In this document: positions 22,655 to 33,652 of the stretch, piece after piece
Position numbering within the stretch: position 1 is the first letter of the stretch
Layout: each line of letters begins with the position of its first letter
Source: an uncultured Clostridia bacterium
Lineage (GTDB): Bacteria > Bacillota > Clostridia > Oscillospirales > Ruminococcaceae
Reading direction: 5' to 3'
Assembly (NCBI GenBank): GCA_947628405.1
Contig: CANQZR010000008.1
Location: 1-35,535 of the forward strand
DNA length: 35,535 bases
Notes under the pieces: generated by a model
Told to the model about the DNA's origin: nothing
The model's database searches: none
What the model saw: only the letters and a program-made list of their open reading frames with translations
Translations under genes and position numbers: made by a program

Positions 22655-22843
22655 TTATTTTATTGCTTTCTTTTTTTCGCTGTGGCAAATTGCCGAATTT
22701 GGACAACAGCCGCAGCTTCCTCCGCAGGAGGATCTGCCGTTCCTTTTGTCTTTTTTCATGCCCGAAATTATAAGAGCAATAACAAGTATCAGAATTATTG
22801 CGGCAATTATTGTACCGAAATTTACAGTTAAAAATTCTGCCAT
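22655..22843 (-). CDS. FeoB-associated Cys-rich membrane protein
   Basis: A 62-residue protein with an N-terminal transmembrane helix (GTIIAAIILILVIALIISGM, about residues 10-29), a basic stretch KKDKRNG and then a cysteine cluster SSCGGSCGCCPNSAIC holding five cysteines. This fits the FeoB-associated cysteine-rich family (PF12669-like), small proteins coded next to feoB that may handle or sense iron near the pore; the mechanism is not established. It follows feoB after 33 bases with AAGGAGGAAA just upstream. It is the last gene of the operon. Confidence 0.88.
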   Translation of the reverse strand: MAEFLTVNFGTIIAAIILILVIALIISGMKKDKRNGRSSCGGSCGCCPNSAICHSEKKKAIK

Positions 22844-22876: not shown

Positions 22877-25075
22877 TCAGGCTTTTGCTTTTATGCGGAC
22901 TTTGGTCGTCAGACGGCTGCTTTCCTTGTAAGGTCTTGCAAGCATATAGATCATGAAAGCAAGTATCGCTATTGCAAATATAAGACCTATAACATTTACA
23001 TTTCCCGTGAAAAGAAGTCCGAACTGATAAACAATAAGTGAAATTGCGTATGCGAACAAGCATTGATATGCAATTGCAAAAGCAGTCCATTTTGCACTGT
23101 TCATTTCACGTCTGATAGCGCCTATTGCTGCAAAACATGGAGCGCAGAGAAGATTGAATATAAGGAATGAATATCCTGCCAGTGCGGAAAATTCTGCTGC
23201 AAGGCTGCCCCAGATCTCATCGCCGTTTTCGGAAACTTCTTCTGCAAAGTGATAAAGCGAACCATATGTGGCAACGACGTTTTCCTTGGCAATAAGTCCT
23301 GTAACAGCTGCAACAGCAGCTTTCCAGTCGCCCCAGCCGAGAGGCGCAAATATCCATGCTATTGCTCCGCCGATCTTTGAAAGTATAGAGTTATCTATTT
23401 CTTCGACCATGCCGAAGCTGCCGTTTTCAACGCCGAATCCCATTAAGAACCAGAGCACGATAGTCGAAAGAAGTATTATCGTTCCCGCTTTTTTGATGAA
23501 TGACCAGCCGCGCTCCCACATTGAGCGGAGAACATTTCCAACGGTAGGAAGATGATATGCCGGAAGCTCCATTACAAACGGTGCAGGATCGCCTGCGAAC
23601 ATTTTTGTTTTTTTCAGGATAATTCCCGAAATTATTATCGCCGCAACACCTATGAAATATGCCGAGACTGCTACCCAGCCTGCGTTGTTGAAAAGTGCGC
23701 CTGCAATAAGTCCGATTATGGGGAGCTTTGCACCGCAGGGGATAAATGTGGTAGTCATTATCGTCATGCGCCTGTCGCGTTCGTTTTCAATTGTCCTTGA
23801 AGCCATTATTCCCGGAACGCCGCAGCCTGTGCCTATAAGCATAGGAATGAATGATTTTCCTGAAAGACCGAACTTGCGGAAGATCCTGTCCATTACGAAC
23901 GCGATACGCGCCATATATCCGCAGGATTCCAGAAATGCAAGGAATATGAACAGTACAAGCATCTGCGGAACGAATCCAAGGACCGCACCTACGCCGCCGA
24001 TTATTCCGTCAAGAATAAGACTTTGCAGCCAGTCTGCGCAGCCGATACTGTTAAGAAGATTTTCAACAATTACGGGAATACCAGGTATCCAGATGCTTTC
24101 TATACCGAATAAATGCCAGCCGTCACCGAAAACGCCGTCATTTGCCCAGTCTGTCGCCCATGTTCCCACAGTGGTTACCGAAACATAATAAACAATAAAC
24201 ATTACTACTGCGAAGATCGGCAGGGCAAGTATTCGGTTTGTGACTATCTTGTCTATTTTATCGGAAATTGTCAGGCTGCCTTTGCTTTTCTTGGTATAAC
24301 AGCCTTTGATAATGGAAGCGATATAAATGTAGCGTTCATTGGTGATTATGCTTTCGGAATCGTCGTCCATTTCTTTTTCCGCAGCAGTAATGTCAGTTTC
24401 GATATGTGCCTTTTTATCTTCGGGGATATTGAGCATTTCAAGCACTTTGTCGTCACGCTCGAAGATCTTTATTGCATACCATCTTTGCTGTTCTTCCGGA
24501 ATGTCATGCAGTACAGCTTCTTCGATGTGGGCGATAGCGTGTTCAACGCAGCCGCAGAAGCTGTGCTGGGGGATAGAGGGGGACATGGCTTTTGCAGCTT
24601 CAACAGCAGCTTCGGCGGCTTTTGTTATGCCCTCGTTTTTAAGGGCGGAAATTTCCATGACCTTGCAGCCAAGTTCTTTTGCAAGCTGTTCGGTGTTTAT
24701 TTTGTCACCGTTTTTGCGGACAACGTCCATCATATTTATAGCAACTACAACAGGTATGCCCAGTTCTACAAGCTGGGTGGTAAGATAAAGATTGCGTTCA
24801 AGATTGGTACCGTCAATGATGTTAAGTATGGCGTCGGGACGTTCACTGATAAGGTAATTCCTTGCAACTACTTCTTCAAGCGTATAGGGCGAAAGTGAAT
24901 AAATTCCCGGAAGGTCTGTGATGATAACATCTTTCTGACCTTTCAGACGTCCCTCCTTTTTTTCTACTGTAACGCCGGGCCAGTTTCCAACAAATTGATT
25001 TGAACCTGTCAGGGCGTTGAAAAGCGTTGTCTTGCCGCAGTTTGGATTGCCGGCAAGAGCGATTCTGATCTCCAT
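22877..25075 (-). CDS. feoB: Ferrous iron transport protein B
   Basis: FeoB is the GTP-dependent Fe(II) permease of the cytoplasmic membrane. The N-terminal G domain has G1 GNPNCGKTTLFNALTG, the switch region VGNWPGVTVEKKEG, G3 DLPGIYSLSPYT, G4 NMMDVV and G5-like SALKNEG. A helical GDP-dissociation-inhibitor-like domain follows, then two Gate regions with about ten membrane segments (for example LGFVPQMLVLFIFLAFLESCGYMAR and GTGCGVPGIMASR). I start at 25075, because AAGGA is 7 bases before it and only 1 base before the ATG at 25081; the length is then 732 residues. Two operator-like palindromes lie just upstream, suggesting iron-controlled internal initiation. Confidence 0.96.
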   Translation of the reverse strand: MEIRIALAGNPNCGKTTLFNALTGSNQFVGNWPGVTVEKKEGRLKGQKDVIITDLPGIYSLSPYTLEEVVARNYLISERPDAILNIIDGTNLERNLYLTTQLVELGIPVVVAINMMDVVRKNGDKINTEQLAKELGCKVMEISALKNEGITKAAEAAVEAAKAMSPSIPQHSFCGCVEHAIAHIEEAVLHDIPEEQQRWYAIKIFERDDKVLEMLNIPEDKKAHIETDITAAEKEMDDDSESIITNERYIYIASIIKGCYTKKSKGSLTISDKIDKIVTNRILALPIFAVVMFIVYYVSVTTVGTWATDWANDGVFGDGWHLFGIESIWIPGIPVIVENLLNSIGCADWLQSLILDGIIGGVGAVLGFVPQMLVLFIFLAFLESCGYMARIAFVMDRIFRKFGLSGKSFIPMLIGTGCGVPGIMASRTIENERDRRMTIMTTTFIPCGAKLPIIGLIAGALFNNAGWVAVSAYFIGVAAIIISGIILKKTKMFAGDPAPFVMELPAYHLPTVGNVLRSMWERGWSFIKKAGTIILLSTIVLWFLMGFGVENGSFGMVEEIDNSILSKIGGAIAWIFAPLGWGDWKAAVAAVTGLIAKENVVATYGSLYHFAEEVSENGDEIWGSLAAEFSALAGYSFLIFNLLCAPCFAAIGAIRREMNSAKWTAFAIAYQCLFAYAISLIVYQFGLLFTGNVNVIGLIFAIAILAFMIYMLARPYKESSRLTTKVRIKAKA

Positions 25076-25088
25076 AAACATTTCCTTT

Positions 25089-25104
25089 CTTAGCGTTTGC
25101 TAAC
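25089..25104. promoter_or_regulatory. Feo palindrome 1 (GTTA-N8-TAAC type), upstream of feoB
   Basis: CTTAGCGTTTGCTAAC lies 13 bases before the feoB ATG. It matches the other four boxes except for the first base. The inner TTAGC/GCTAA arms are perfectly complementary. Confidence 0.65.
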
Positions 25105-25130: not shown

Positions 25131-25146
25131 GTTATATATGTCTAAC
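25131..25146. promoter_or_regulatory. Feo palindrome 2, between feoA and feoB
   Basis: GTTATATATGTCTAAC has the same 16-base GTTA-N8-TAAC form. It lies 15 bases after the feoA stop and overlaps a weak possible -35 (TAGACA on the minus strand). It is the poorest inner match of the five. Confidence 0.5.
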
Positions 25147-25161: not shown

Positions 25162-25383
25162 TCAAGCTGTCTCAATGTTTTCGGCATCTGCTTTTCTCAA
25201 AGAAAGTTCATATCCGCGGACTGTGATCTCTATAGGATCGCCGAGAGGAGCGACTTTACGGATATAGACTTCTGTCCCTTTGGTTATGCCCATATCCATT
25301 ATCCGGCGTTTGACGGCACCTTCGCCGCAAAGTTTTTTTACGGTCACGGTCTGTCCCACCTTTGCTTCTTTAAGTGTTGACAT
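25162..25383 (-). CDS. feoA: FeoA family protein, second copy
   Basis: A 73-residue SH3-like FeoA protein, which binds and supports FeoB at the inner membrane face. Typical segments are LKEAKVGQTVTVKKLCGEGAVKRRIMDMGITKGTEV and the end GDPIEITVRGYELSLRKADAENI. This copy keeps the RRIMDMGI pattern of classical FeoA and is the one closest to feoB. GGAGG lies 7 bases before the ATG. It is 30 bases downstream of the other feoA gene, so both are probably read from one transcript. Confidence 0.93.
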   Translation of the reverse strand: MSTLKEAKVGQTVTVKKLCGEGAVKRRIMDMGITKGTEVYIRKVAPLGDPIEITVRGYELSLRKADAENIETA

Positions 25384-25413: not shown

Positions 25414-25623
25414 TCATACCATTATCTTGTTTGCCATTTCTTTTGAAACGGCAACACGGGAATCCTTTACATTAACGATAACATTTCCGCTGATCTCGTT
25501 GATTATCGTAACTGTTCCGCCGACAACAAATCCGAGATTTTCGAGAAATTTTTTTGTTTCAGGATTTCCGCCTATCTTTTTGATAATGTTTTCTTCGCCT
25601 GCATTAGCCAGACTCAAAGGCAT
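25414..25623 (-). CDS. feoA: FeoA family protein, first copy
   Basis: A 69-residue FeoA-like protein (LSLANAGEENIIKKIGGNPETKKFLENLGFVVGGTVTIINEISGNVIVNVKDSRVAVSKEMANKIMV). It differs clearly from the second copy: the KKFLENLGF part replaces RRIMDMGI. The pair is therefore an old duplication rather than a recent copy. Two tandem feoA genes ahead of feoB are common in Clostridia. GGAGGAATAT precedes the ATG. Its promoter carries two palindromic boxes. Whether the two FeoA forms act together as a complex on FeoB is not known from sequence. Confidence 0.9.
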   Translation of the reverse strand: MPLSLANAGEENIIKKIGGNPETKKFLENLGFVVGGTVTIINEISGNVIVNVKDSRVAVSKEMANKIMV

Positions 25624-25656: not shown

Positions 25657-25672
25657 GTTAGTTTTAACTAAC
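25657..25672. promoter_or_regulatory. Feo palindrome 3, in the feoA leader
   Basis: GTTAGTTTTAACTAAC is a near-perfect palindrome (TAGTTAGTT-TT-AACTAACTA when extended). It lies about 43 bases downstream of the promoter -10, in the transcribed leader, 33 bases before the feoA start. Confidence 0.75.
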
Positions 25673-25690: not shown

Positions 25691-25706
25691 GTTAACTTTC
25701 GCTAAC
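25691..25706. promoter_or_regulatory. Feo palindrome 4, at the feoA transcription start
   Basis: GTTAACTTTCGCTAAC lies 8 bases downstream of the -10 element, so it should cover the transcription start. A bound repressor would block initiation. Confidence 0.75.
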
Positions 25707-25714
25707 CAAATAAT

Positions 25715-25743
25715 ATGATACTCTTTTTAAATTAAAATGTCAA
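25715..25743 (-). promoter_or_regulatory. SigA-type promoter of feoA-feoA-feoB
   Basis: On the minus strand a perfect TTGACA (25738-25743), a 17-base spacer and TATCAT (25715-25720). Palindromes 3 and 4 lie just downstream. Confidence 0.8.
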
Positions 25744-25820: not shown

Positions 25821-26105
25821 TTATTGCCTGCAATACTGTTCCAGAACGGATCTAAGAGCATTAACACTTGCATTATGTATTCTTGCTACAGGAATATTGC
25901 GCTTTGACGATCTCTGATTTACGCTCGTTACCATTTTATGAGAGCAAGTATTTGTAAATACTACCATAAGATCCGGATCGCCGAGTTTGTTTTCAAAATC
26001 CGATGGTATATGCGTAAACACTTTTGCCTTGCAGTTATAAGAGCGGCAGATATCCTTATAACGCGACGCCATACGATCGTTGCCTCCGATCACAACAACG
26101 CTCAT
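25821..26105 (-). CDS. DUF2325 domain protein
   Basis: The 94-residue product matches what I recall of DUF2325: VVVIGGNDRMASRYKDICRSYNCKAKVFTH at the N-terminus, a nucleotide-binding-like start, then LMVVFTNTCSHKMV and a VARIHNASVNALRSVLEQ end. Conserved polar residues (Asp9, the Cys-Ser-His cluster near residue 54) could bind a metal or ligand, but the function is not known to me. The gene lies directly upstream of the feo cluster, on the same strand, with its own promoter and a palindrome of the same type. It is therefore probably part of the same metal response. AAGGAGG lies 7 bases before the ATG. Confidence 0.85.
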   Translation of the reverse strand: MSVVVIGGNDRMASRYKDICRSYNCKAKVFTHIPSDFENKLGDPDLMVVFTNTCSHKMVTSVNQRSSKRNIPVARIHNASVNALRSVLEQYCRQ

Positions 26106-26122
26106 ATTTTCACCTCCTTGCA

Positions 26123-26138
26123 GTTAGAATAGGCTAAC
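26123..26138. promoter_or_regulatory. Feo palindrome 5, at the DUF2325 transcription start
   Basis: GTTAGAATAGGCTAAC lies 3 bases downstream of the -10 element of the DUF2325 promoter. It has arms GTTAG/CTAAC and the same 16-base length as the other boxes. Confidence 0.75.
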
Positions 26139-26141
26139 TAT

Positions 26142-26170
26142 ATTTTAACACAGCAGAAAAATATTGTCAA
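26142..26170 (-). promoter_or_regulatory. SigA-type promoter of the DUF2325 gene
   Basis: On the minus strand a perfect TTGACA (26165-26170), a 17-base spacer and TAAAAT (26142-26147). Palindrome 5 follows at once. Confidence 0.8.
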
Positions 26171-29170: not shown

Positions 29171-29590
29171 ATGGACGTTAAAAGCGACGCGGAAGAATTA
29201 ATGGAAAAATTCCGGTCCTGCGCCCCTAAGAAATTTTTCAGCAGCGTTGAGGAGGCTGAAAGAGGCATAGGCTTTATACTTGTGTTCCTCTATAAGTCCG
29301 ACGGGGAAGTCATTGCCGGAGATATTGCCAGAGAAATGAACGTTACCACCGCAAGAGTAGCGGCGCTCCTCAAAAAAATGGAAAAAAACGGCTTGATAAC
29401 AAGAGAATGTTCCTTAAATGACGGCAGACGAACGGTCGTTAAAATTACCGGAAAGGGTACGGCTGCTGTGCTCCGCAAAAGAGAGGAACTCCTGAAAAGG
29501 ACCGAGCTGCTTATTGAAAAAGTAGGGAAAAAGGATCTGGAGGATTTTATCCGCATTTCACAAAAAATACGGGACGCCTTGGGCGAATGA
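29171..29590 (+). CDS. MarR-family transcriptional regulator
   Basis: The 139-residue protein has a winged helix in the middle (GDIAREMNVTTARVAALLKKMEKNGLITRECSLNDGRRTVVKIT, about residues 54-98), with the recognition helix TTARVAALLKKM and the wing DGRRTVV. Helices at both ends form the dimer. MarR proteins usually repress drug-exporter genes and are released by small ligands. GGGAGGTG lies 6 bases before the ATG. It heads an operon with a heterodimeric exporter 24 bases downstream (measured to the preferred start of that gene) and carries an operator-like palindrome at its own promoter. Confidence 0.92.
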   Translation: MDVKSDAEELMEKFRSCAPKKFFSSVEEAERGIGFILVFLYKSDGEVIAGDIAREMNVTTARVAALLKKMEKNGLITRECSLNDGRRTVVKITGKGTAAVLRKREELLKRTELLIEKVGKKDLEDFIRISQKIRDALGE

Positions 29591-29614
29591 TATTTCTGAA
29601 AGGAGATAATGACA

Positions 29615-31855
29615 ATGGGGAATATATTCCGCAATCTGAAAAAGTACTGGTATCTGGTGCTTATGATAGTATTGCTTCTGTTTATTCAGGCGTACTGTGA
29701 CCTGTCTTTGCCGGATTATACTTCCGAGCTTATTGATGTGGGCATATCAAATTCCGGCATTGAACATTCTGTTCCGCAGTATATTTCGGAGCAGGGCTAT
29801 ATGGGAACTGCCGCATTTATGACGGAAGAGGAAAAGACCGACTGGCAGGATATTTACAGTTATGATGAAGATCTTGGATATTATGTGCTGTCCGGAGAAA
29901 AGACTTCCGAAGAAGAATGGAACGCACTGGACAGTGAATTTTCGGACGTTATCGCAATAGCATATATGATCAATTCACAAGCATCTGAAGAATTGTCAGG
30001 CATGGATATGTCTGCGCTTCAGGGCGCCGATATTTCTCAGGTCGATACTTCCGGCATGAGCGATGAGGAGCTTGCAATATTCATGCAGATGCAGCAGTCG
30101 CAGAGCGGCAATGTCATGCTGGATATGAGAAACGCGCTTGAGGAACAGCTTTCCTCACTGGGAGACAGTATGATAGGTTCAATGGCAAAATATTTTGTCA
30201 GAGAGCAGTATGAGATATGCGGCATAGACCTTGAAAAGCTCCAGAGCAGCTACCTGTGGCGCACCGGAGGAAAAATGCTGATAATGGCTCTGGTCGTAGC
30301 GGCGGCAGCAATACTTGTGGGATTTCTTGCGTCGCTGGTGGCGGCAGGAGTCGGACGGGATCTTAGGAACAGTATCTTCCGCAAGGTAATGAGTTTTTCA
30401 AATGCCGAACTGGACAGATTTTCAACGGCTTCATTGATAACAAGGAGCACCAATGATGTTCAGCAAATACAGTTCGTTACGGTAATGCTTCTAAGAATGG
30501 TGCTGTATTCGCCGATCCTTGCTATAGGCGGAATAATAAACATCAGCCGATACAGATCGGGAATGAGCTGGATAATCGTTCTTGCGGTGGCTGTTGTACT
30601 CAGCCTTGTACTGGCGCTTATGATGATAGCAATGCCGAAATTCAGGATAATGCAGGATCTTGTGGATAAGGTCAACCTTGTTGCAAGGGAAATGCTGACC
30701 GGTATACCTGTAATAAGGGCATTCGGCAGGGAAAAACATGAGGAAAAGCGTTTTGACGCCGCAAATACCGACCTTATGAAAGTAATGCTTTTCACAAATA
30801 AAGTAATGTCATTCATGATGCCTGCGCTTATGCTGGTAATGAACGGCGTTTCTGCATTGATAATATGGGTAGCCGCAAAGAAGATAGACGAAGGAGTTAT
30901 CGAAGTCGGAGCAATGACTGCATTTGTAACATATTCCATGCAGATAATAATGTCGTTCCTGATGATAACAATGATATCGGTAATGCTGCCGAGAGCCGGA
31001 GTTGCGGCAAACCGCATAAAGGAAGTCCTTGATACCGAGCCTGTTATCACTGATAAAGAAGATCCCATAACGGATATGCCGGCAGAGACTTCGGTAAGAT
31101 TTGACCATGTGAGCTTCAGGTATCCCGACGGCGGAGAGAATGTTCTGACGGATATAGATTTTACCGCCGAAGCCGGAAAAACAACGGCCGTGATAGGAAG
31201 CACCGGCTGCGGAAAATCCACGCTTGTAAATCTTATACCGAGATTTTTTGACGTTACGGAGGGAAGCGTTTCCGTAGGAGGGATAAATGTAAAAGATCTG
31301 TCGATAGAAACGCTCCGCAGGCAGATAGGTTATGTTCCGCAGAAAGCGGTGCTGTTCTCGGGAGATATCTTTTCAAATATTTCATACGGAGCGGATAATG
31401 CTTCGGAGCAGGACGTTATCGAAGCGGCGGAGATCGCTCAGGCTTCGGAATTTATAAACGAAAAACCGGACGGATACAGAAGTCCTATTGCGCAGGGCGG
31501 CACAAACGTATCAGGCGGTCAGAAGCAGAGACTTTCAATAGCAAGAGCTATAGCGCGCGATCCTAAAATATACATTTTTGACGACAGCTTCTCTGCGCTT
31601 GATTTCAAGACGGATACGGCTCTGAGAAACGCTCTTTCCAAAAAGACAAAGGAGGCTGCGGTTATAATCGTTGCTCAGCGCGTCAGCACAATACTTAATG
31701 CAGATCAGATAATCGTTCTTGAGGACGGCAGAATGGTCGGCAAGGGAACTCATAAGGAGCTTGTAAAGAACTGCGAGGAATATGAACAGATCGCGCGTTC
31801 GCAGCTTTCCGAAACGGAATTTCTCAGAAGTATCGAAGCAAAGGAGGAATGCTGA
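29615..31855 (+). CDS. ABC exporter half-transporter 1, degenerate ATP site, large extracellular insert
   Basis: A 746-residue fusion of six-helix membrane domain and ATPase. I prefer the ATG at 29615 (AGGAG 9 bases upstream) over 29609 (3 bases). Between helix 1 (YWYLVLMIVLLLFIQAY) and helix 2 (MLIMALVVAAAAILVGFLASL) lies an acidic insert of about 160 residues, presumably outside the cell. The ATPase has Walker A GSTGCGKSTLVN (about 527) and signature VSGGQ, but Walker B is IFDDSFSALD (catalytic Glu replaced by Asp) and the switch His is Gln (VAQRVSTI). This is the degenerate half of a TM287/288-like heterodimer. Substrate unknown, drug or lipid export likely. Confidence 0.93.
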   Translation: MGNIFRNLKKYWYLVLMIVLLLFIQAYCDLSLPDYTSELIDVGISNSGIEHSVPQYISEQGYMGTAAFMTEEEKTDWQDIYSYDEDLGYYVLSGEKTSEEEWNALDSEFSDVIAIAYMINSQASEELSGMDMSALQGADISQVDTSGMSDEELAIFMQMQQSQSGNVMLDMRNALEEQLSSLGDSMIGSMAKYFVREQYEICGIDLEKLQSSYLWRTGGKMLIMALVVAAAAILVGFLASLVAAGVGRDLRNSIFRKVMSFSNAELDRFSTASLITRSTNDVQQIQFVTVMLLRMVLYSPILAIGGIINISRYRSGMSWIIVLAVAVVLSLVLALMMIAMPKFRIMQDLVDKVNLVAREMLTGIPVIRAFGREKHEEKRFDAANTDLMKVMLFTNKVMSFMMPALMLVMNGVSALIIWVAAKKIDEGVIEVGAMTAFVTYSMQIIMSFLMITMISVMLPRAGVAANRIKEVLDTEPVITDKEDPITDMPAETSVRFDHVSFRYPDGGENVLTDIDFTAEAGKTTAVIGSTGCGKSTLVNLIPRFFDVTEGSVSVGGINVKDLSIETLRRQIGYVPQKAVLFSGDIFSNISYGADNASEQDVIEAAEIAQASEFINEKPDGYRSPIAQGGTNVSGGQKQRLSIARAIARDPKIYIFDDSFSALDFKTDTALRNALSKKTKEAAVIIVAQRVSTILNADQIIVLEDGRMVGKGTHKELVKNCEEYEQIARSQLSETEFLRSIEAKEEC

Positions 31856-33652
31856 ATGCCGCCGAGAGGAAGAGGTCCTGCGGTAGAAAAAGCAAAAGAT
31901 TTCAAAGGTACCGTCCGCAGGGTAATAGGTTATACCGGAAGATACAAAGCAGGCGTTGCTGCCGTTATGCTTTGTGCCGCCGCAAGCGCGGTATTCCATA
32001 TCGTAAGTCCGAAAATACTCGGAAAAGCCACAACGTCTCTTTCCGAGGGATTGATGAAAAAGATCACCGGCACAGGAGGGATAGATTTTTCCTATATCGG
32101 AAAGATCCTTCTTATAGTGCTTGCACTGTATGCTGCGAGCTTTCTTTTCAGCCTGATACAGGGGCTTACCATGTCGTCCATAACCCAGAGGCTTTGCTAC
32201 AAGCTGAGGAAAGATATCACCGAAAAAATGGACCGTATGCCGCTTAAATATTTTGAAAGCAAGACATACGGAGAAGTCCTTTCAAGGATAACGAATGATG
32301 TGGATACATTCGGAAACGGCTTCAATCAGAGCGTTACACAGCTTATAACCTCCGTAACGACAATGATAGGCGTTGTGATAATGATGCTGACTATCAGTCC
32401 GCTTATGACCCTTATAACGCTGCTGATACTTCCTGTCAGCCTTGTATTCATAGGAGCGGTGATGAAAAAGTCACAGAAATATTTCAAGCAGCAGCAGGAA
32501 TACCTTGGACATATCAACGGTCAGGTAGAAGAAAATTATTCCGGACATCTTGTCGTAAAAGCCTTCGGAAAGGAAAACGACGTGATAGATAGATTCAGCA
32601 GCACGAATAACGTTCTTTATGAATCTGCATGGAAGTCACAATTCCTGTCCGGACTTATGATGCCGGTAATGCAGTTCGTAGGCAATCTCGGATATGTGGG
32701 AGTGGCTATATCCGGCGCTTTCCTTGCGGTGCGCGGAACTATCGAGATAGGCGATATACTTGCTTTTATCACTTATGTAAGGAACTTCACCCAGCCCATG
32801 CAGCAGATCGCTCAGGTTACAAATATGATGCAGTCAATGGCTGCGGCGGCAGAACGTGTTTTTGAATTTCTTGATGAAGAGGAAGAGGATCAGACCACAG
32901 AGAATGCGGTATCTGTCGGAAATATAAGCGGAGTTGTGGATTTTACACACGTCAGCTTCGGATATGATCCGGAAAAGATAATAATAAAGGATTTCAACGC
33001 TCACGTCGATAAAGGAAAGCAGATAGCCATTGTAGGACCTACCGGAGCGGGCAAGACCACCATGGTAAAGCTGCTTATGAGGTTCTATGATGTCAACGGA
33101 GGAGAAATAAGGCTTGACGGTCACGGACTCAGGGAATATAACCGGAACGAGCTGCGCAGCGCTTTCGGAATGGTTTTGCAGGATACATGGCTTTTCAAGG
33201 GAAGCATAATGGAAAATATCCGTTACGGAAGACTTGAGGCGTCTGATGAAGAAGTTATCGCAGCGGCAAAGTCCGCTCATGCGGATCATTTTATCAGGAC
33301 TCTTCCGGGAGGATATGATTTCGAGCTGAACGAGGACGCTACCAATGTTTCTGCCGGACAGAGACAGCTTCTGACAATTGCAAGAGCGATCCTTGCCGAC
33401 AGACCGGTACTTATACTTGACGAGGCGACTTCATCGGTAGATACCAGAACGGAGCACCGCATACAGCGCGCAATGGATAATCTTATGCGCGGCAGGACCA
33501 GCTTTGTTATCGCTCACAGACTTAGCACTATACGGAATGCGGATATGATACTTGTTATGAAGGACGGAGATATAATCGAACAGGGCAGCCATGATGAACT
33601 TATGGACAAAAACGGCTTCTATGCGGAGCTGTACAATGCCCAGTTCGCATAA
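31856..33652 (+). CDS. ABC exporter half-transporter 2, catalytic half
   Basis: The 598-residue partner begins MPPRGRGPAVEKAKDFKGTVRRVIGYT, directly after the upstream stop, with GGAGG 9 bases ahead. Six membrane helices (ALYAASFLFSLIQGL, MTLITLLILPVSLVFIGAV, GYVGVAISGAFLAV and others) precede an ATPase with Walker A GPTGAGKTTMV, consensus Walker B LILDEATSSVD and switch His in FVIAHRLSTI. Its signature is NVSAGQ rather than SGGQ. So the active site (its own Walker motifs plus the partner's SGGQ) is intact and the other site is degenerate, as expected for a heterodimer. The MarR gene in front probably controls it. Confidence 0.94.
   Translation: MPPRGRGPAVEKAKDFKGTVRRVIGYTGRYKAGVAAVMLCAAASAVFHIVSPKILGKATTSLSEGLMKKITGTGGIDFSYIGKILLIVLALYAASFLFSLIQGLTMSSITQRLCYKLRKDITEKMDRMPLKYFESKTYGEVLSRITNDVDTFGNGFNQSVTQLITSVTTMIGVVIMMLTISPLMTLITLLILPVSLVFIGAVMKKSQKYFKQQQEYLGHINGQVEENYSGHLVVKAFGKENDVIDRFSSTNNVLYESAWKSQFLSGLMMPVMQFVGNLGYVGVAISGAFLAVRGTIEIGDILAFITYVRNFTQPMQQIAQVTNMMQSMAAAAERVFEFLDEEEEDQTTENAVSVGNISGVVDFTHVSFGYDPEKIIIKDFNAHVDKGKQIAIVGPTGAGKTTMVKLLMRFYDVNGGEIRLDGHGLREYNRNELRSAFGMVLQDTWLFKGSIMENIRYGRLEASDEEVIAAAKSAHADHFIRTLPGGYDFELNEDATNVSAGQRQLLTIARAILADRPVLILDEATSSVDTRTEHRIQRAMDNLMRGRTSFVIAHRLSTIRNADMILVMKDGDIIEQGSHDELMDKNGFYAELYNAQFA

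Follow-up and report, generated by a model that had tools for sequence, protein, structure and literature searches.

The DUF2325 gene that we analysed in an uncultured Clostridia bacterium probably, at about 80% by our estimate, belongs to a small iron-starvation regulon, in which it is transcribed as a unit of its own. At the level of sequence, its membership of the regulon and the architecture of its promoter are established by conservation. The proposal of an earlier note, that the gene shares its control with feo, turned out to be real and conserved in relatives, and of the two metals it had left open, iron is preferred over manganese. In the window, which is the whole stretch of 35,535 nucleotides that was analysed, the gene is found in the ORF list at 25821–26105 on the minus strand; all promoter, operator and feo features given below are on that strand too. 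It encodes a small Rossmann-like protein of 94 residues (AlphaFold2 pLDDT 95), which belongs to DUF2325 by a full-domain match to the PF10087 profile (E=4e-32, 110.6 bits against a curated cut-off of 33.6, profile positions 1–94 of 94 covered).

The promoter scan placed a -35 hexamer TTGACA at 26165–26170 and a -10 hexamer TAAAAT at 26142–26147, separated by 17 nt, with 11 of 12 consensus matches and an extended TG. The operator box GTTAGCCTATTCTAAC (26123–26138) begins 3 nt past the -10 and lies over the expected transcription start, and inspection of the sequence showed a ribosome-binding site AGGAGG at 26113–26118. The feoA-feoA-feoB-FeoB-associated cluster begins about 200 nt downstream of DUF2325 and has its own promoter, again found by the scan, with TTGACA at 25738–25743, a spacer of 17 and TATCAT at 25715–25720. 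The first feoA box, GTTAGCGAAAGTTAAC at 25691–25706, has one mismatch to GTTAG-N6-CTAAC and lies 8 nt past the -10. Both geometries, 3 nt after the -10 for DUF2325 and 8 nt for feoA, had been claimed from the sequence beforehand, and the coordinates and spacings are correct.

Pattern searches revealed three boxes in addition to those named in the earlier note: GTTAGTTAAAACTAAC in the feoA leader (25657–25672), GTTAGACATATATAAC between feoA and feoB (25131–25146, one mismatch), and GTTAGCAAACGCTAAG directly before feoB (25089–25104, one mismatch). The cluster itself consists of two feoA copies with FeoA domains (25414–25623, PF04023 E=3e-15; 25162–25383, PF04023 E=6e-22), feoB for the ferrous iron transporter (22877–25081, TIGR00437 E=1e-168), and a gene for a FeoB-associated Cys-rich membrane protein (22655–22843, PF12669 E=2e-11). 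Feo is the main iron importer in many anaerobic gut bacteria. A MarR-family gene at 29171–29590, upstream of two ABC exporter genes (29609–33652), is a separate unit, and this context led us to set it aside as regulator of the boxes.

The looser pattern GTTA-N8-TAAC occurs four times in the window, all within 1.05 kb, as compared to 0.46 expected, and 1 of 100 shuffles was as high. Pattern searches of the 2.04-Mb genome bin (86% complete) gave two exact copies of GTTAG-N6-CTAAC, both at the DUF2325-feo locus, and eight when one mismatch was allowed, of which five are at this locus (3 of the 6 one-mismatch sites). The palindrome overlaps the promoters of its putative target genes, DUF2325 and feoA. 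It is conceivable that the box is shared by accident, owing to promoter composition or a recent duplication, and has no function. A single promoter-like match is not unusual in this AT-rich region (6 found against 5.4 expected, not significant), and the control counts give a chance expectation of about 1–2 exact boxes per genome. The promoter match becomes significant because the box is conserved in relatives. We compared 80 loci from species genomes whose DUF2325 proteins are 63–98% identical, and the survey of DUF2325 neighbours that had been suggested for this box found it, with at most one mismatch, within 160 nt upstream of the gene in 64 of the 80, a count taken over related sequences, many with recent common ancestry, and not over independent events. 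Dinucleotide shuffles of the same loci gave a mean of 0.25 and a maximum of 1. The box also keeps a fixed place after the -10 in the DUF2325 and feoA promoters, and 149 genomes of the family hold 672 boxes against 234 for a control pattern. The chance reading is refuted by this conservation across relatives, and we give it practically no weight.

In the 59 recognisable DUF2325 promoters the box starts 3–12 nt past the -10, mostly at 3 or 7–9 nt, and the spacer is 17 or 18 nt, so that it would cover the start site that we infer for them. The feoA promoters of relatives are even more uniform, with the box 7–9 nt past the -10 and a spacer of 17 in 25 of 27. In thirteen of the 16 remaining loci the box is at a mis-called DUF2325 start (L039, L053) or farther upstream. 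The latter are eleven. In ten of them a flavodoxin gene, as a rule preceded by DUF3793, comes before DUF2325, and a box or pair of boxes stands ahead of the first gene of the operon; in L078 the box is about 220 nt upstream of DUF2325. Locus L079 ends at a contig edge, and an upstream box is absent only in L058 and L063 among the 80 loci; these two have a box at FMN-binding-like genes. Further family loci (L082–L110) all have the box somewhere in the locus (29 of 29).

Many feoA promoters have, besides the boxes at the start site and in the leader, an extra upstream box-like site, GTTAC/GTTAT-N6-CTAAC (L016, L018, L024, L026, L027, L030, L034, L039, L042, L049), which suggests that several repressor dimers are involved. 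Larger regulons were seen in L138–L171 (G141, for instance, has 20 exact copies), where the box is also found ahead of ABC-transporter-like genes, Trep_Strep membrane proteins and an AMP-binding enzyme.

Among the 80 relatives DUF2325 is found in one of two operon contexts, feoAAB or DUF3793-flavodoxin, the latter being a classic iron-shortage module. Genes for feo are beside DUF2325 in 29 of the 80 loci, and DUF3793, usually together with flavodoxin, in 40, some loci having both. Conserved linkage to feo, the absence of which would have spoken against the iron connection, is also present in 9 of 18 loci of the phylum-wide subfamily, and in 11 of these 18 either feo or DUF3793 is within about 4 kb. 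Three of the linked loci (L226, L227, L234) do not have this box; therefore the functional link appears to outlive the operator. The flavodoxin genes inside the operons provide an internal control: 2 of 56 have a box of their own, as compared to 60 of 68 DUF3793 starts. The two uncharacterised families also tend to occur together in the 149 genomes (35 with both, 10 with DUF2325 only, 42 with DUF3793 only, 62 with neither; Fisher p=2e-5), and they are at most 1.3 kb apart in 27 of the 35 genomes that have both. DUF3793 was not found in the source genome, so DUF2325 can work without it, and one 99% complete congener has the box and lacks DUF2325.

DUF3793 (L004:6353-6922 and other loci) is a second uncharacterised family that belongs to this regulon. 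Some of its Cys residues are conserved, and its model (pLDDT 85) had no fold match in the PDB at E<0.1. A complete iron island with the same boxes was observed on a Roseburia plasmid (L175, NZ_CP135163.1, 111250–127525), in the order feoA-feoA-feoB-Cys-rich protein-Fur family gene-DUF3793-flavodoxin-DUF2325; both feoA and DUF3793 are preceded by boxes there.

These neighbourhoods bear on the possibility that DUF2325 acts directly on Feo, for instance as a FeoA-like modulator of the FeoB GTPase, and not on intracellular iron. The adjacency to feo in many loci, the operon-like order DUF2325-FeoA-FeoB in L226, L227 and L234, and the source genome itself, which has DUF2325 and feo without DUF3793, would all fit such a role. 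However, about half of the close relatives have DUF2325 with DUF3793-flavodoxin instead, often with no feo near, and only about one third of the family genomes have DUF2325 at all. With DUF2325 above the cut-off in 45 of the 149 genomes, and feo at 29 of the 80 close loci, the protein is not consistently feo-linked as a Feo component should be, and we regard a direct action on Feo as rather unlikely.

The operator is most likely bound by a short DtxR-family repressor, judging from gene adjacency, co-occurrence and residues. The source genome encodes a single DtxR-family regulator (PF02742 match at G000:C10:17118-17300). Box number follows the presence of DtxR across the 149 genomes, and boxes are retained in those without Fur. 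Among genomes of 90% completeness or more, those with DtxR have a box count of 5.5 and those lacking it 0.8 (p=2e-5), as compared to 1.7 and 1.1 for the reversed control pattern, although one genome (G084, 97% complete) has no DtxR match and yet 5 boxes. The box is within about 250 nt upstream of 10 of the 22 DtxR-like genes of the loci, which links operator and regulator; the DtxR gene of the source genome has no box. In L154 (G013) and L160 (G146) DtxR and feoA are transcribed divergently and boxes lie between them, L230 has the order feoA-feoB-Cys-rich protein-box-DtxR-DUF2325, in L228 DtxR and DUF2325 are neighbours with a box each, and in L067 a boxed DtxR gene adjoins a DUF3793-flavodoxin-DUF2325 operon.

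Some feo operons end with degenerate DtxR-like genes (L018:4831-5220, L024:10677-11051, L026, L029, L030, L036, L039:4039-4410, L043). Their C-x-x-E-H metal site is lost (for example DAVKIV), and the proteins may be metal-independent partners or anti-repressors.

The best alignment of the regulator is to the diphtheria DtxR, with the stretch ACRxEH retained, in which DtxR has Cys102, Glu105 and His106. If the regulator instead sensed Mn(II), DUF2325 would belong to manganese handling. The regulator does resemble MntR in that it is short, has no SH3 domain, and has an Asp at the position of Met10 in DtxR, but it keeps the Cys-x-x-Glu-His site of the DtxR type, the regulon consists of feo and flavodoxin, and no manganese transporter was recognised among the inspected box-bearing genes. 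Iron is favoured as the metal of the predicted repressor because of this site and the co-regulated genes, and a manganese regulon seems very improbable to us.

A Fur-family repressor could also be imagined to bind the box in place of DtxR, in which case DUF2325 would still be an iron-starvation gene. In Clostridium acetobutylicum and C. difficile, feo and fldX are under the control of Fur (PMC6311696), a Fur-family gene is part of the Roseburia island, where there is no DtxR, and is also near DUF2325 in L233 and L212, and Fur-positive genomes have more boxes overall. On the other hand, there is no PF01475 match in the source genome (86% complete), nor in the congener G093 (99% complete), which has one DtxR and 2 boxes; other genomes without Fur have up to 10. 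Moreover, the box is unlike the Fur site given for Clostridium in PMC6311696 and flanks DtxR genes in several relatives. With no homologue detected, we reject Fur as regulator in the source genome, and as a general explanation it is improbable; a short DtxR-type repressor remains our preferred reading.

The AlphaFold2 model of the DUF2325 protein shows four beta-alpha units in a Rossmann-like sheet. Foldseek searches with it returned generic Rossmann-like, receiver and IIB folds only; a further hit, to a viral model, is itself annotated as DUF2325 with no function attached. PHROGs gave a weak methyltransferase match only, and no sequence relative was found in the PDB. Throughout the phylum-wide subfamily, the conserved residues are Gly7-Gly8, Asn/His9, mostly Asp/Glu10, Met12, Tyr16, Lys28, Phe/Tyr30, Thr31, Gly42, Pro44, Thr51, Thr53, Ser55-His56, Met58, His77 and Ser80. 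A Cys-Ser-His cluster near residue 54 had been proposed as a ligand site. Its Ser55 and His56 are indeed conserved, but Cys54 is confined to the close clade (78 of 78 close relatives) and is replaced by Val in 18 of 23 family and 18 of 19 phylum members, which rules it out as a general ligand of the family. From the topology, the conserved polar residues would lie at the C-terminal ends of strands 1–4, where folds of this type usually bind their ligands. As regards a metal site, the conserved His56, His77 and Asp/Glu10 are suggestive only.

Taken together, the regulation could work as follows. When iron is sufficient, the short DtxR repressor (G000:C10:17118), loaded with Fe(II), would bind the palindrome GTTAG-N6-CTAAC, and with the box lying over the start site just past the -10, binding would silence both DUF2325 and feoAAB. 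When iron drops the repressor would be released, and both would be produced. Our guess, and a tentative one, is that the Rossmann-like DUF2325 protein is a cytosolic accessory in iron scarcity. Its Gly-Gly, Asp/Glu10, Thr51/53, Ser55-His56 and His77 at the C-terminal edges of the strands might form a site for Fe(II) or for a small ligand, and the protein would aid the delivery of scarce iron or the switch to iron-sparing electron carriers. It is possible, though we would not call it likely, that in gut Clostridia without Fur a short DtxR with a new operator spacing took over the iron-starvation regulon, and that DUF2325 and DUF3793 are dedicated iron-economy proteins, one of them an intracellular Rossmann protein binding Fe(II) or another ligand and the other a flavodoxin partner. 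The analysis yields a well-defined operator, a candidate for its repressor, and two conserved proteins that are apparently expressed at iron scarcity, and the function of DUF2325 and DUF3793 is now directly testable.

The literature covered, in which few subscription papers were included, holds no description of the Clostridia operator, of feo or flavodoxin modules with DUF2325, or of the DtxR assignment. Searches of it on DUF3793, on DtxR with feo and on the GTTAG motif gave no account of this operator either, and none of the literature covered deals with Feo regulation in these Oscillospiraceae. The nearest known systems are the DtxR/IdeR regulons of Corynebacterium and Mycobacterium, which also have a DtxR-family repressor with a C-x-x-E-H site, GTTAG/CTAAC half-sites, and iron uptake genes under promoter repression, as predicted here. 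In the classical 19-bp DtxR box, TTAGGTTAGCCTAACCTAA, the half-sites are 1 nt apart. In the boxes searched for and counted here they are 6 nt apart, and therefore the operator is a variant. The regulator here also differs in having no SH3 domain, and its targets would be feo, flavodoxin, DUF3793 and DUF2325 in anaerobic Clostridia. The Feo system is represented by the neighbouring operon, which is a standard feoA-feoA-feoB-FeoB-associated cluster, whereas DUF2325 is not counted among the Feo components and occurs in only about one third of the family genomes.

In Clostridium acetobutylicum and C. difficile, feo and flavodoxin are likewise co-regulated targets, there of Fur (PMC6311696), but with an AT-rich Fur site, whereas here the palindrome is another and no Fur is detectable. 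That a DUF2325 gene can be under iron control is already published for Campylobacter, and hence not new: in Campylobacter jejuni cj1384c, beside katA, responds strongly to iron limitation and is up in a fur mutant (PMC3815106, PMC4491227). It was also the top induced gene in a study of light and oxidative stress, in which purification of the protein failed (PMC9426514). The two genes can be likened via the DUF2325 family label, but cj1384c is under Fur and PerR control in a katA neighbourhood, and its protein is reported to have 7 cysteines (PMC9426514) as compared to 4 in the DUF2325 protein here.
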